64,000 nt of DNA from Natrinema halophilum (GTDB lineage Archaea > Halobacteriota > Halobacteria > Halobacteriales > Natrialbaceae). Location of the stretch: the NCBI RefSeq assembly GCF_013402815.2, contig NZ_CP058601.1, positions 3,534,001-3,598,000 of the forward strand, read 5' to 3'. Each line of letters begins with the position of its first letter. Within the stretch, counting starts at the first letter, position 1. Positions 8,042 through 56,788 of the stretch are shown here, in pieces. The notes under the pieces are model-generated. The model did not search any database and was not told the DNA's origin. It saw only the letters and a list, made by a program, of their open reading frames with translations. The position numbers and the translations under genes are program-made.

Positions 8042-9976
8042 TTAGGTCATCTCTGCCATCCCCGCCATCCCCGCCATCTCTGCCATCCCCGCCATCTCCG
8101 CCATCTCTTCGGATTCCGGTTCGACGACGGAACAGCGAACAGTAACACTCGTGCCGTCCGCGTCCGTATCGAACTCGAGGTCGCCGCCGAGGGCGGTGAC
8201 GGACCACGAAACGATCCACAGACCAAGTCCGCTGCCGTGTTGGAGGGCCGTTTCCTCCCCGCGCTCGAGGACGGCGAGTTCGTGGTCCGGACTCCCGGGC
8301 CCGTTATCGCGGACGGTAAACACGGCTTTCCGATCGTCCGTGATGCGTTCGAGGCCGATCGTCACGCATGGATCGTCCGCGTCGTTGTGGGTAAGCCCGT
8401 TCTCGATGAGGTTTTCGAACGCGAGTTCGAACAGTTCGCGGTTCGATCGTATCGAGAGGTCGGCGGGAACTGACACGTCGACCCGTCCCTCCGCTTCGGC
8501 TTCGAGTTCGGCCGCGACCGACCTCAACGCGGCCAGGGCCGAGAAGGAGTCCGGCGACTGGGACGCGGATTCGATCGCGCGTTCGAACGCGCGGGCTTTC
8601 TCGCTCAGCTCGAGGACGCCCTCGACGTCGTCGTGAACTCTCGCGAGCATCGATGCGAGGTCGCCGTCGGCTCGGTCGGCGGCGATAGAGACGTAGCCCC
8701 GGGCGGCGGTCAGATCGTTCCGGAGGTTGTGGCGCAACACACGATTCAGAATCTCGAGTCGCTGCTCGCGTCGCCGTTGCTCGGTACTGTCCTGCAACAG
8801 GACGGTGTGGCCGACGATCCGGCCCGAACCGTCACGAAGTTCCGACGTCGAGACGGCGAGCTCTCGGCGAGTTCCGCCGACAGTGTCCGGAACGACCACC
8901 ATCTCGGAGAGCCTGTCGAGCGTCGAGCCGGTTACTTCCTCGAGCGGGTCGCCGAGAACGTCCGACGCCGCAACGTCGAACAGGGACTCGGCCGCCGGGT
9001 TACAGTCGACGATCCGTTCGTCCGTACCGACGGCGAGAAACGGATTCTCGAGGGCGTCGACCGCGGACTGATCGGCCCTGCGACGGACGGAGGGGCTGTA
9101 CGTGAACATGCCGCCGCCGACGAACGCGTAGGCGTCGAGGGCGACGTGAGGCAGAAACATGACCGCAGCGAGGGTTAGCTGCGGCGGGATCGGTTCGATT
9201 TTCAGGAGCCAGGCGAGCACGGCGATACCCGGCGGGAGGGTGCTGAGGCCGACGGCGAGCGCTTCTGTACGATAGAGCGGCCCGTAGCTCACGACCGTAT
9301 CGAAACGGAGTAGCGTGCCGGACGGTGCGGCCACCATCCCGAGCGAAATCGCGAAGAAAGCCCAGGCGTTGAGATCGTACGCTACTGTCGCCGCACCGAA
9401 GATCGGGTCGATTCGGAAGTTGTTCCAGACGATTTCGTGAAGCGGGTTCGTCACGACGAGCACCGTCGTAATCGCAGGGACGGTGAGGAGCGCACCGAAC
9501 CACGGCGTGCGGACGAGCGAACCGCGGCCGGTGTACTCGAGGCCGAAGGCCAGAAACGGCACACCGGTCCAGACGATGCCGATCCAGGTCAGCATCTCGA
9601 GGGCTACCCTGAGCGTCGGATCGTCGACGAACAACGAGACGCCGTAGGAGAGACACCACAGGGCCTGCGCCACGAGCACGAGCAGAAACCAGTTTGCACC
9701 CGGTTTCCCGCGGTGTCGTCGAAGATATCGGAGTAACAGGACCGTTCCGACCCCGGAGAGGAGTGATCCGGCTGCTGGCCATGGAACTGCCCCATCGTAC
9801 TCAGCGTTCGAGTACAGTGACTTCGGTTTGTGGTCCGATGGCCCGTCGATCTCGGTCACAGACGGGCGGAGACCGCCGAGAAACGCGGGGATCGGTGAGC
9901 GGAGACCGCGCTCGATGGAGCCGGTGGATTGTATAGAGGCTGGTCGCGGACGCACGAAACCGACCGCCGTGATCAA
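8042..9976 (-). CDS. 7TM-sensor histidine kinase with PAS domain
   Basis: Up to 644 residues. The frame opens at 9976, but the first 60 residues are not family-like and a GTG at 9859 or a later start may be used. The N-terminal half has seven hydrophobic helices (GSLLSGVGTVLLL ... MFLPHVALDAYAFVG), matching the histidine-kinase 7TM region. A PAS domain follows (ALENPFLAVGTDERIVDCNPAAESLFDV). Next comes a haloarchaeal-type H-box (ILNRVLRHNLRNDLTAARGY) and an HATPase domain with N-box (ENLIENGLTHN), DNGPG and GSGLGLWI. The protein ends in a Met/Ala/Glu/Gly repeat. It senses an unknown membrane or extracytoplasmic signal; no response regulator gene is adjacent. Confidence 0.88.
   Translation of the reverse strand: MITAVGFVRPRPASIQSTGSIERGLRSPIPAFLGGLRPSVTEIDGPSDHKPKSLYSNAEYDGAVPWPAAGSLLSGVGTVLLLRYLRRHRGKPGANWFLLVLVAQALWCLSYGVSLFVDDPTLRVALEMLTWIGIVWTGVPFLAFGLEYTGRGSLVRTPWFGALLTVPAITTVLVVTNPLHEIVWNNFRIDPIFGAATVAYDLNAWAFFAISLGMVAAPSGTLLRFDTVVSYGPLYRTEALAVGLSTLPPGIAVLAWLLKIEPIPPQLTLAAVMFLPHVALDAYAFVGGGMFTYSPSVRRRADQSAVDALENPFLAVGTDERIVDCNPAAESLFDVAASDVLGDPLEEVTGSTLDRLSEMVVVPDTVGGTRRELAVSTSELRDGSGRIVGHTVLLQDSTEQRRREQRLEILNRVLRHNLRNDLTAARGYVSIAADRADGDLASMLARVHDDVEGVLELSEKARAFERAIESASQSPDSFSALAALRSVAAELEAEAEGRVDVSVPADLSIRSNRELFELAFENLIENGLTHNDADDPCVTIGLERITDDRKAVFTVRDNGPGSPDHELAVLERGEETALQHGSGLGLWIVSWSVTALGGDLEFDTDADGTSVTVRCSVVEPESEEMAEMAGMAEMAGMAGMAEMT
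8048..8106. repeat. 9-bp periodic repeat encoding the kinase C-terminal MAE/MAG tail
   Basis: cat triplets recur every 9 bases (8048, 8057, 8066, 8075, 8084, 8093, 8102) within units of the type gccatccc or gccatctct. On the minus strand this encodes a Met-Ala-Glu/Gly tripeptide repeat just before the TAA stop of the histidine kinase. Confidence 0.85.
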
Positions 9977-10044: not shown

Positions 10045-11568
10045 ATGAACGTCTGTATCGTCCTCGGCCATCCGCGAACCGATAGTTTGTGCGGCGCACT
10101 CGCCGAGGCCTATCGCGACGGAGCACTCGATGCGGGGACGGACGTTCGAGAACTCGCCGTCGCCGATCTCGAGTTCGACCCGGACGTTCGCGCGGAGACG
10201 CCCGACGACCAGGAGTTGGAATCCGACCTCGTCGAAGCCAGAGCGCGGATTCGCTGGGCGGATCACCTCGTCTTCGTCTATCCGAACTGGTGGGGGACCA
10301 TGCCGGCGCGGCTCAAGGGGTTTTTCGACCGCACGTTTACATCCGGCTTCGCGTTCTCGTTTTACGACGACGGCGAGGGGGCGGGTCACGAGAAACTGCT
10401 TGACGACAAAACTGCCGAACTGATCGTCACGATGGACGTGCCGCCGTGGGTATATCGCTGGATCTATCGCCAGCCGGGCCACAACGCCGTCAAGCGCGCG
10501 ACGCTGGGGTTTGCCGGGATTAGAACGACGCGGGTAACGAACTTCGGGCCAGTCGAGTCGTCGACGCCAGACGAACGCGAGGGGTGGCTCGAGAAAACGA
10601 CCCGGTTGGGTCGGCGACTCGCCGTCGGGCCGGAGCCTCGGCGGAGGCGCATCCGACGTCGGGTGAGGTCGTGGGCGAAAGCCCTCCGGTTGCAGTTTTA
10701 TCCGATGTCGTGGGCGGCGTACACGATCGGCGCGATGGCGGCGTCGGGTGCGAGTGGCGTGTTCTCGTCCACCGCGTACTGGTTGGGGTTCGGCTTCCTC
10801 TTCTCTCTCGAAGCGGCGACGGTGCTAAGCAACGAGTACGTCGACTATCCATCCGATCGCGAGAACGCCTTCGCTGGACCGTTCACCGGCGGCTCACGCG
10901 TCCTCGTCGACGGCGAACTGGGATTCGACGATCTGCGGCGAGGGATCGTCGTCTCGGTCGCAGGGGCCGTCGCGTTCGGCGCGTCCGTCCTTGCCGCCGG
11001 AACCGGTTCACAGTACGCCGTGGCTGCGGCGATGGTGCTCCTGAGCACCCTGGCGCTCGGATACACGATACCGCCGCTGGAACTGTCCTACCGAACGCTC
11101 GGGGAACTGGACGTCGCCGTCACCCACAGCGTCGGCGTGTTGCTGTGCGGATTTCTCGTCCAGGGCGGCGCGTGGGCCGATCCGCGTCCGTGGTTGCTCT
11201 CCATCCCGTTCCTGTTGGCTATCCTGCCGTCGATAACGCTAGCAGGCGTTCCCGACCGCGCCGCCGATAGCGCGGCCGGAAAGGAGACGGTGGCCGTTCG
11301 CGCCGGTGTCGACGGGGCAGCGAGGGTCGCGATGGCGGCCGCGATACTGGCCAGTCTGGCCGCGGTCGTCTGGGCCGCGTTCGACGTGGCCGGAGGTGCA
11401 TACGGCCCGCTCGTCGCTCTCACCGTTCCGCACGCGCTCGGGCTGGTCTGGCTCCTTCAGACCCGTTTGCGAGGACAGACGGAACCGACGCGCATCGACG
11501 GGATGATGGCAGCCTCGCTCGGGTACCTGCTCTGGTTCGGCGCCGTTCCGTTGCTCAACCTCTCGTGA
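10045..11568 (+). CDS. Fusion: flavodoxin-fold NAD(P)H quinone oxidoreductase + UbiA prenyltransferase
   Basis: 507 residues in one frame from ATG 10045. Residues 1-195 form a Flavodoxin_2-type oxidoreductase: beta1 MNVCIVLGHPRTDS, the FMN loop YPNWWGTMPARLKGFFDRTF (about 80-98) and a conserved GHEKLL segment; such enzymes reduce quinones with NAD(P)H. A basic linker follows (RRRRIRRRVRSWAKAL). Residues 215-507 are a membrane-embedded UbiA prenyltransferase with 8-9 helices. It has both Asp-rich motifs: NEYVDYPSD (N263, D267, D271) and DRAAD (D404, D408) in the MenA-like arrangement. UbiA enzymes attach prenyl chains to aromatic quinone precursors or other acceptors. The fused pair suggests quinone or related prenyl-lipid chemistry at the membrane; the substrate is unknown. 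Confidence 0.85.
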   Translation: MNVCIVLGHPRTDSLCGALAEAYRDGALDAGTDVRELAVADLEFDPDVRAETPDDQELESDLVEARARIRWADHLVFVYPNWWGTMPARLKGFFDRTFTSGFAFSFYDDGEGAGHEKLLDDKTAELIVTMDVPPWVYRWIYRQPGHNAVKRATLGFAGIRTTRVTNFGPVESSTPDEREGWLEKTTRLGRRLAVGPEPRRRRIRRRVRSWAKALRLQFYPMSWAAYTIGAMAASGASGVFSSTAYWLGFGFLFSLEAATVLSNEYVDYPSDRENAFAGPFTGGSRVLVDGELGFDDLRRGIVVSVAGAVAFGASVLAAGTGSQYAVAAAMVLLSTLALGYTIPPLELSYRTLGELDVAVTHSVGVLLCGFLVQGGAWADPRPWLLSIPFLLAILPSITLAGVPDRAADSAAGKETVAVRAGVDGAARVAMAAAILASLAAVVWAAFDVAGGAYGPLVALTVPHALGLVWLLQTRLRGQTEPTRIDGMMAASLGYLLWFGAVPLLNLS

Positions 11569-34114: not shown

Positions 34115-34705
34115 ATGCGGATACCTCGACGAACACTCCTGACCGGGGTTGCGACGAGTGCTGCAATCGCCGGCTGCCTCGGCGGCGGCGATTCGGACGA
34201 ACCCGCGGACGACGCCGGTAACGAGACGGACGACAGCGGTAATGAGACGGACGACAGCGGTAATGAGACGGACGACAGCGGTAATGAGACGGACGACAGC
34301 GAAGCCGACGCGACGGTCCGGATCCGGTCGCATTCCGAACACGGCGACGTGCTGGTCGGTCCGGACGGATTGACGCTGTACAACTTCGATCGAGATACGC
34401 AGGACGCGGCGGAAAGCGCCTGCTCCGGTGACTGTGTCGACGCGTGGCCGCCGTTGACCGTCGATCAGGAACCGACCGCCGGTGAGGGCGTCACTGCGGA
34501 GTTGACCACCTTCGAGCGAGCGGACGGAACGATGCAGGTGGCTGCTAACGGCTGGCCGCTGTACTACTTCGCTTCAGACGAAGAGCCGGGCGACGCGAAC
34601 GGTCACGGCGCCAACGACGTCTGGTGGGTTCTCGGACCCGACGGAACGCCGATGCGACCGAGCGACGGGAACGACCCGGACAACGAAACCGAAAGCAGTT
34701 CGTAG
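34115..34705 (+). CDS. Exported COG4315-type lipoprotein
   Basis: 196 residues from ATG 34115 (MRIPRRTLLTGVATSAAIAGCLGG), a Tat signal with lipobox AGC; the frame from 34052 is an extension. A low-complexity Gly-Asn-Glu-Thr-Asp-Asp-Ser repeat spacer (about 35-65) follows. The folded part has two copies of a short motif around a W-P: GLTLYNFDRDTQDAAESACSGDCVDAWPPL and NGWPLYYFASDEEPGDANGHG (key parts DGLTLYNFD, CSGDC, WPLYYFA). This is the secreted repeat lipoprotein family COG4315. Members are surface proteins with a conserved Cys pair; no activity is established. The final GPDG-P stretch closes the domain. Confidence 0.85.
   Translation: MRIPRRTLLTGVATSAAIAGCLGGGDSDEPADDAGNETDDSGNETDDSGNETDDSGNETDDSEADATVRIRSHSEHGDVLVGPDGLTLYNFDRDTQDAAESACSGDCVDAWPPLTVDQEPTAGEGVTAELTTFERADGTMQVAANGWPLYYFASDEEPGDANGHGANDVWWVLGPDGTPMRPSDGNDPDNETESSS
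34217..34300 (+). repeat. 21-bp tandem repeat, 4 copies
   Basis: Copies at 34217-34237, 34238-34258, 34259-34279 and 34280-34300 of ggtaatgagacggacgacagc (first copy has ac for at). In frame, it encodes four GNETDDS heptads in the lipoprotein spacer. Confidence 0.95.
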
Positions 34706-41343: not shown

Positions 41344-41455
41344 GCGAACTCGGGTGCGTACTGACTAAAACGCGAACTCGGGTGCGTACTGACTAAAACG
41401 CAAACTCGGATGCGTACCGACTGAAACGCAAACTCGAGTGGGTGCCGACTGAAAT
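41344..41455 (+). repeat. 28-bp tandem repeat, 4 copies
   Basis: Copies at 41344-41371, 41372-41399, 41400-41427 and 41428-41455. The first two are identical (gcgaactcgggtgcgtactg plus actaaaac); the third and fourth diverge at several positions. Period 28 is not a multiple of 3 and no frame runs through, so it is non-coding. It lies between the rubrerythrin-like gene and the HTH-FilR1 gene, ending 122 bases before the latter's start. Confidence 0.95.
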
Positions 41456-55588: not shown

Positions 55589-56788
55589 ATGATCGGTCCA
55601 AAACGACTCGGGAGTGGTGTTGTGGTAACGGTGATAATGTTGTCAATCGTCGCCGGAGGTGGTGTACTTGCAGCGGGGGGGAGTTCTACCGTGTCGCCTG
55701 ACGACGTCTCCGTTACGAGCCAGGGAGTGGATTATTACGATGATATCGCCGTCTTTGAGGTGTCGAACGATGGCGATCAGGCGGTCACCTTGACGTATAC
55801 CAACGAATCGGGAACCGAGTCAACAGTGACGGTCGATGCGAATTCAGCGACGAACGTGACGACGGGTGTGACCGGGAATACCGCTGGCGAGATTACACTG
55901 ACGAAGGATGGAACGACCTACGCCCACGACTTCGCTGGTCACCCCGTGGATCTCGGCCCTGCTAACCCGAATCCTGGAAAAATCACCATCGAAGCCGTCA
56001 GTTACGACGAACAACACGGTCTAGTCGAATATACAGTATCGAATGGCAACGACAGACCCGTCGACGGCCACATCAGTCACGTCCCAGTAGGTGCCGAAAA
56101 TAGCAACCTCACGATTTCGCCCGACGGATCCACGACCATTCTCGTGGAAGACAACGAGTCTCGAGTTGGAGACATCTATCGTACCACTTCTGCGCTTCAG
56201 CTCGACTTCTTCGAGGATGTCGAGGATACCATGGAACCTGGCGATCCTGTCCCGCTACTCTCATCCGGTGAAGTGACTGACGAAACGCCGCGAAAAACCC
56301 TCGAGCAGACTGACTCAGCCAATTCTGACCGGTCCTCCGCTAGCTCGGACGGAAACGAGGACGCGTCCGATGACGGCTCCAGTGGCGACGACGGGCCGGA
56401 CGATTCCAGTGGCGACGATGGGTCGGACGATTCCAGTGGCGACGACGGGTCGGACGACTCCAGTGGCGACGACGGGTCGGACGACTCCAGTGGCGACGAC
56501 GGGTCGGACGACTCCAGTGGCGACGACGTCTTCGGCAATGAATCCGCTGCTGACGACGACAGCGCCAGTAACGAATCCGCTGCTGACGACGACACCTCGG
56601 GTGGCGATTCTACTGCCAGCGACGATACTACCAACACCGATGACGGTGCCTCGACTGACTCCAGTAGCGACTCAGAGACCGATTCTACGTCGTCTGAAGG
56701 AACGCCCGGCTTCACTGCTGGTACTGCCCTCGCCGGTGGCATGATCTCTCTCGAGTGGATCCGACGTCGAGCGCGCGCTGGGGAGTAA
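55589..56788 (+). CDS. Repeat-rich secreted surface protein with PGF-CTERM-like end
   Basis: 399 residues from ATG 55589 (MIGPKRLGSGVVVTVIMLSIV), a signal peptide followed by a mature part; GTG 55562 would add nine residues. About 200 residues of beta-rich sequence with Asn/Thr/Asp (VSPDDVSVTSQGVDYYDDIAVFEVSNDGDQ, key part VSVTSQGVDYYDD) are followed by an Asp/Ser repeat of about 150 residues. The end PGFTAGTALAGGMISLEWIRRRARAGE has the PGF motif, a hydrophobic stretch and a basic tail, as in archaeosortase-processed proteins, though the helix is short. It is likely a glycosylated cell-surface protein. Confidence 0.82.
   Translation: MIGPKRLGSGVVVTVIMLSIVAGGGVLAAGGSSTVSPDDVSVTSQGVDYYDDIAVFEVSNDGDQAVTLTYTNESGTESTVTVDANSATNVTTGVTGNTAGEITLTKDGTTYAHDFAGHPVDLGPANPNPGKITIEAVSYDEQHGLVEYTVSNGNDRPVDGHISHVPVGAENSNLTISPDGSTTILVEDNESRVGDIYRTTSALQLDFFEDVEDTMEPGDPVPLLSSGEVTDETPRKTLEQTDSANSDRSSASSDGNEDASDDGSSGDDGPDDSSGDDGSDDSSGDDGSDDSSGDDGSDDSSGDDGSDDSSGDDVFGNESAADDDSASNESAADDDTSGGDSTASDDTTNTDDGASTDSSSDSETDSTSSEGTPGFTAGTALAGGMISLEWIRRRARAGE
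56378..56527 (+). repeat. 27-bp tandem repeat, five full copies plus a partial
   Basis: Copies start at 56378, 56405, 56432, 56459, 56486 and 56513 (last partial) with the unit tccagtggcgacgacgggtc plus ggacgac. Each encodes a nine-residue Ser-Ser-Gly-Asp-Asp-Gly-Ser-Asp-Asp-type unit in the surface protein. A second pair, aatccgctgctgacgacgac, follows at about 56540-56595. Confidence 0.95.

Follow-up and report, generated by a model that had tools for sequence, protein, structure and literature searches.

UBIAD1, the human/vertebrate menaquinone-4 synthase (8djk), attaches its prenyl chain to a naphthohydroquinone, an acceptor that has to be brought into its reduced state beforehand (PMC4398444). 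It relies on a separate reductant, DTT in the assay; no MK-4 was synthesized without it, and the authors concluded that menadione needs prior reduction (PMC4398444). This requirement gives a chemical reason to fuse a quinone reductase with a prenyltransferase. The protein described here shares with UBIAD1 the UbiA fold, both Asp-rich motifs and, by profile match, a place on the MenA-like side of the UbiA superfamily, but the two are only 19% identical and UBIAD1 has no reductase domain. MenA (TIGR00751 / PRK06080) has the same type of Asp-rich motif and is the sister clade in our UbiA tree; however, the fusion falls far below MenA cut-offs, and its carriers have either their own MenA or no menaquinone route. 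On the reductase side, NQO1/NQO2, SMU.1420 (3lcm) and the M. marburgensis NAD(P)H:quinone oxidoreductase (4r81) share the flavodoxin-like fold, 23-29% identity over the domain, and the motif P-x-[WY]-W-x-x-x-P-A-x-L-K-G-x-x-D-R. These are soluble stand-alone enzymes, whereas the fused domain belongs to a separate subfamily marked by a TMDxP motif. UbiA domains with a fused partner also occur in carrier genomes as HAD-UbiA (PRK08238, NF006088) and CtaA-CtaB proteins (L109; L081, L082), but these have other partners and sit on other branches of the UbiA tree. Both halves of the protein come from known families, while their combination is undescribed in the open-access papers searched, where we found no account of a Flavodoxin_2-UbiA fusion, and the UbiA half forms a clade of its own.

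The window (the whole 64,000-nucleotide stretch of Natrinema halophilum DNA that was analysed) encodes this combination in a single frame, with the following features.

10045..11568, + strand: whole gene for the Flavodoxin_2-UbiA fusion protein, 507 aa (ATG start, single open reading frame, full-length homologues)
10045..10638, + strand: N-terminal NQO-like flavodoxin-fold quinone reductase domain, aa 1-198 (Pfam PF02525, 1.1e-33)
10066..10101, + strand: first FMN loop GHPRTDSLCGAL, aa 8-19 (H9, P10, R11 and S14 invariant in 22 fusions)
10282..10332, + strand: FMN loop PNWWGTMPARLKGFFDR, aa 80-96 (P80, W82, W83, P87, K91, D95 and R96 invariant in 22 fusions)
10429..10458, + strand: third active-site loop TMDVPPWVYR, aa 129-138 (M130, D131, P133 and R138 invariant in 22 fusions)
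10639..10686, + strand: Arg-rich linker / amphipathic helix RRRRIRRRVRSWAKAL, aa about 199-214 (10 K/R against 1 D/E before TM1)
10687..11565, + strand: C-terminal UbiA prenyltransferase domain with nine TM helices, aa about 215-507 (Pfam PF01040, 3.7e-17)
10831..10866, + strand: first Asp-rich motif NEYVDYPSDREN, aa 263-274 (N263, D267, D271 and N274 invariant in 22 fusions)
11251..11289, + strand: second Asp-rich motif PDRAADSAAGKET, aa 403-415 (P403, D404, A407, D408, K413 and T415 invariant in 22 fusions)

Both Pfam matches (Flavodoxin_2 at residues 1-174, UbiA at residues 228-473) lie above the gathering cut-offs, and codon-position GC is even across the junction of the two domains. The original prediction, that one protein joins a flavodoxin domain through a basic linker to a membrane UbiA domain, was borne out by the single 507-aa frame, these matches and homologues with the same domain order. 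It had asked whether that order recurs in other genomes and had held that a frame error in this one strain would overturn it. A scan of species genomes recovered at least 27 full-length relatives of the same order besides the window gene, together with a few incomplete ones, at 45-75% identity. The haloarchaeal fusions (64-75% identity) come from Haloterrigena, Natrialba, Halovivax, Natronococcus, Natronorubrum, Natronolimnohabitans, Natronomonas and Halococcaceae MAGs, and the proteobacterial ones from Salinisphaera, Litchfieldella, Lutibaculum, one Burkholderiaceae MAG and two gammaproteobacterial MAGs. Two Gemmatimonadota MAGs also have the fusion, and a Roseinatronobacter plasmid bears another copy, annotated there only as 'NAD(P)H-dependent oxidoreductase'. 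The domain order is therefore conserved across two domains of life. Because homologues in other species share its length and order, a sequencing frame error or strain-specific join is ruled out. Whole-genome searches found an intact copy in 39 of 125 Natrialbaceae genomes; these copies, together with those of other haloarchaea and of bacteria, make it extremely improbable that annotation or sequencing artefact joined two genes through a frame error, a reading for which we found no supporting evidence.

The distribution of the fusion is patchy. In a sample of 293 genomes from the order, three carriers belong to another haloarchaeal family; gammaproteobacterial carriers are rare, at 4 of the 274 genomes sampled with the centre genome included. 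Two of the 125 Natrialbaceae genomes, G072 and G098, have broken copies. The match in G072 is split between frames (G072:C3:2955795-2957311), and G098:C56:203713-204885 and L027:6001-7182, also from Natrialbaceae, show internal deletions across the linker and the early part of UbiA. Leaving aside two defective copies (one with a frameshift, one with an internal deletion), the two domains are never found apart in this family. Judging from the broken copies (L027, G098, G072), the gene is dispensable in some Natrialbaceae lineages. The patchy occurrence over two domains of life points to horizontal transfer of the fusion, mostly, judging from record titles, among saline or soda habitats.

The active-site residues of both halves are strongly conserved. 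As had been predicted, the flavodoxin domain has a complete FMN loop and the UbiA domain retains both Asp-rich motifs, with every residue listed above unchanged in the 22 aligned fusions, from archaea to bacteria. At the level of sequence, the invariant FMN-loop residues speak against a general loss of FMN binding among homologues, which the prediction had named as a second point of failure. The UbiA motifs follow the patterns N263-xxx-D267-xxx-D271 and D404-xx-A-D408; with these two putative Mg2+/prenyl diphosphate-binding motifs, the C-terminal half can be assigned to the UbiA superfamily. Many flavodoxin residues extend beyond the fusions: H9, P10 and S14 are kept in standalone relatives, P80, W82, W83, P87, K91, D95 and R96 are invariant also in the 10 standalone relatives aligned, and nearly all close standalone relatives have the TMDxP motif. 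The FMN loop PNWWGTMPARLKGFFDR aligns with PIWWSGMPAILKGFIDR of 3lcm and PLYWFSVPAILKGWMDR of NQO2.

An AlphaFold2 model built from the family alignment minus one row (a plasmid-collection sequence) reached a mean pLDDT of 90.5 and a pTM of 0.77, and was compared with solved structures using Foldseek and VIA-align. Residues 1-198 matched 3lcm (Z 23.6), NQO2 (Z 22.9), 4r81 (Z 22.8) and NQO1 (Z about 22), and azoreductases were also among the matches; a phmmer comparison of this domain with 3lcm gave 5.5e-20. As modelled, the domain has the flavodoxin-like fold with FMN loops that characterizes Flavodoxin_2. Residues about 203-507 matched UBIAD1 (8djk; Z 23.6 over 268 residues, 3.0 A), and the UbiA half also matched A. 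pernix UbiA (Z 23.4), A. fulgidus UbiA (Z 22.9) and DGGGP synthase (Z 22.8). Matches to these UbiA folds span Z 20.9-23.6 overall, and the model has their nine-TM alpha-helical fold. By sequence, too, UBIAD1 ranked first among the PDB entries that the UbiA profile matched (1.3e-10). The linker RRRRIRRRVRSWAKAL is modelled as a helix that continues into TM1. Lys and Arg counts in the loops (+10, +2, +1, +3 and +2 inside, 0 outside) follow the positive-inside rule and predict a cytosolic location for the flavodoxin domain as well as for the two Asp-rich loops.

We propose that the fusion is a bifunctional, membrane-anchored enzyme that reduces an acceptor and then prenylates it, a reading to which we give an even chance. 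The cytosolic FMN domain would take a hydride from NAD(P)H and convert a quinoid aromatic into the corresponding hydroquinone. The UbiA domain, with its catalytic loops predicted to face the same side of the membrane, would then join this hydroquinone to a polyprenyl diphosphate, which in haloarchaea is probably all-trans C20 or longer, and the product would be a prenylated, membrane-bound (hydro)quinone. The substrate may be an accessory quinone or one obtained by salvage, and not the DHNA used in standard menaquinone synthesis. We infer the use of FMN and NAD(P)H, and reduction before prenylation within the same complex. The proposal is favoured because a fused NQO-type reductase would supply the reduction step that a UBIAD1-like enzyme needs, within one compartment and one polypeptide. 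It is consistent with the invariant FMN loops and Asp-rich motifs, with the resemblance of the two halves to 3lcm/NQO and UBIAD1, with the predicted cytosolic location of the flavodoxin domain and the Asp-rich loops, with the single clade formed by the fused flavodoxin domains, and with the near-constant pairing of the two domains in Natrialbaceae. Counting against it, many UbiA enzymes use phenol acceptors, for which no reduction is required.

Phylogenies of the two halves bear on the origin of the fusion and on its acceptor. In the flavodoxin tree all fused domains fall into one clade (SH-aLRT 100), in which L036 is a fusion cut off by a contig end; the nearest kin of this clade is a widespread bacterial TMDxP subfamily. 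The UbiA-domain tree (51 rows, eukaryotic UBIAD1 not among them) sets off a clade made up of the fusions and four standalone archaeal UbiAs, with 100/99 support (100/100 in another tree). This clade is sister to MenA and MenA-like proteins, not inside the MenA clade, and is distant from UbiA (4-hydroxybenzoate), CyoE/CtaB, DGGGP synthase and HAD-UbiA. A single fusion event followed by spread would account for both trees.

The acceptor cannot be read from the family, as the UbiA domain of the fusion lies below every NCBIfam equivalog cut-off. This fact, the position of the clade beside rather than inside MenA, and the azoreductases among the structural matches would all suit an enzyme in which the acceptor of the UbiA domain is a non-quinone aromatic or some other compound and the flavodoxin domain carries out a reduction that is unrelated or comes later (for example of the acceptor ring, an azo/nitro compound or the isoprenoid). 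We regard such an enzyme as unlikely: the nearest solved structure, UBIAD1, and the sister clade, MenA, both use naphthohydroquinones.

The four standalone UbiAs (L120:6257-7198, L121:4049-4981, L122:2492-3523 and L123:3073-4038) come from four genomes in a different archaeal family within the phylum and have no flavodoxin domain. No flavodoxin match was found beside any of these genes, and in three of the genomes, which are 75-87% complete, nothing matched Flavodoxin_2 above the cut-off. They show that a close UbiA type can exist without a fused reductase, which weighs against reduction followed by prenylation. A constraint grouping all fusions together, apart from the standalone UbiAs, was not rejected (AU p 0.41), and these proteins may be fusions that lost the flavodoxin domain, or a sister group. 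The genes around them suggest a quinone or lipid role; among these are a TspO-family gene in L120, a UbiB-like ABC1 kinase plus a small conserved gene in L121, and a geranylgeranyl reductase in L122.

The sister relation to MenA, together with the presence of MenA (PRK06080) among the best NCBIfam UbiA-model matches, raises the question of whether the fusion is a redundant or replacement MenA that prenylates DHNA for menaquinone. The fusion scored only 39.8 bits against PRK06080, the best MenA-type model (cut-off 277). Furthermore, the window's genome has ten UbiA-family genes, and a true MenA lies elsewhere among them (228.5 bits, cut-off 102), so the fusion is not the organism's menaquinone MenA; others are a DGGGP synthase, a carotenoid-type prenyltransferase (PRK12875), a DPPR-synthase-like protein and two CtaA-CtaB-type proteins. 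MenA is present in the Gemmatimonadota and haloarchaeal carriers, whereas no MenA above the cut-off was found in the proteobacterial carriers tested (Litchfieldella, Salinisphaera, Lutibaculum, the Burkholderiaceae MAG and one gammaproteobacterial MAG); 4-hydroxybenzoate UbiA and CyoE models matched in those proteobacterial carriers whose other UbiA genes were classified. DHNA is also already a hydroquinone, which would make a reductase superfluous. Scores, tree position and genome content rule out a replacement MenA, and we consider a MenA role of either kind, redundant or replacement, very unlikely. With MenA or a ubiquinone UbiA separately present in carriers, the fusion is, from gene content, an additional enzyme on top of either pathway in menaquinone and ubiquinone organisms alike. 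In one Gemmatimonadota MAG a MenA-type UbiA ends a 602-codon open frame (L105:529-2337); the N-terminal 300 residues of this frame match no Pfam family, and this part may be just an open frame.

These results divide the functional part of the original prediction. That the enzyme may reduce an acceptor and then prenylate it at the membrane holds up as an interpretation of the domains, conserved signatures and nearest structures. The implied link to menaquinone synthesis is weakened by the separate MenA in this genome and by the proteobacterial carriers with no MenA above the cut-off, and the menaquinone level of a deletion mutant, proposed as a check, would probably not reveal the function of the fusion.

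Neighbouring genes did not reveal a pathway. We clustered the neighbours of 29 fusion loci and of a further 50 loci (L030-L079), almost all of which hold standalone flavodoxin relatives, and found no gene conserved beyond close relatives; the absence of conserved neighbours pointing to a pathway counts against the proposed two-step enzyme. At the loci examined, no conserved split pair of adjoining flavodoxin and UbiA genes was seen. In nine haloarchaeal loci, and only there (L006, L008, L011, L013, L014, L016, L026, L027 and L028), the fusion is directly preceded by a small same-strand gene, possibly co-transcribed with it; the L008 copy encodes a Cupin_2 protein, and this cupin-type gene is missing in the window.

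The plasmid-borne Roseinatronobacter fusion lies near catalase, superoxide dismutase and ferritin-like genes, which would fit a tethered stress-protection NQO, in which the FMN domain acts on the product, keeping a membrane quinone (menaquinone or ubiquinone) or prenylated product reduced (antioxidant), while UbiA makes or merely holds the lipid. NQO-type folds agree with this reading, and so does the finding that some carriers have the machinery for menaquinone and others that for ubiquinone, a mixture that would fit a reductase making no distinction between head groups. However, the UbiA catalytic motifs are invariant in all fusions and would be needless for a mere anchor, and the vicinity of stress genes is a single instance, absent at the other loci looked at; this role is therefore improbable, if worth keeping in mind.

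Returning to reduction followed by prenylation, the fullest form of our proposal is plausible yet falls somewhat short of an even chance: a single polypeptide would reduce a free quinone and prenylate the hydroquinone, either to make an accessory membrane quinone or to tether one that is toxic and redox-active, on top of menaquinone or ubiquinone metabolism, and would represent a previously undescribed enzyme class shared horizontally by haloarchaea and halophilic bacteria. If true, the single-chain pairing would show that reduction and prenylation are functionally coupled, provide a compact model for hydroquinone handling at the membrane, and point to an uncharacterised prenylated quinone in archaea and bacteria.

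Elsewhere in the window, a tandem repeat (9/27 bp) at 8048-8108 occupies the 3' end of a 7TM histidine kinase gene (8042-9976, - strand) and encodes a Met/Ala/Glu-rich C-terminal tail (EEMAEMAGMAEMAGMAGMAEMT). Further tandem arrays lie at 34206-34301 (21-bp x 4.6), 41347-41454 (28-bp x 3.9) and 56372-56528 (27-bp x 5.8).
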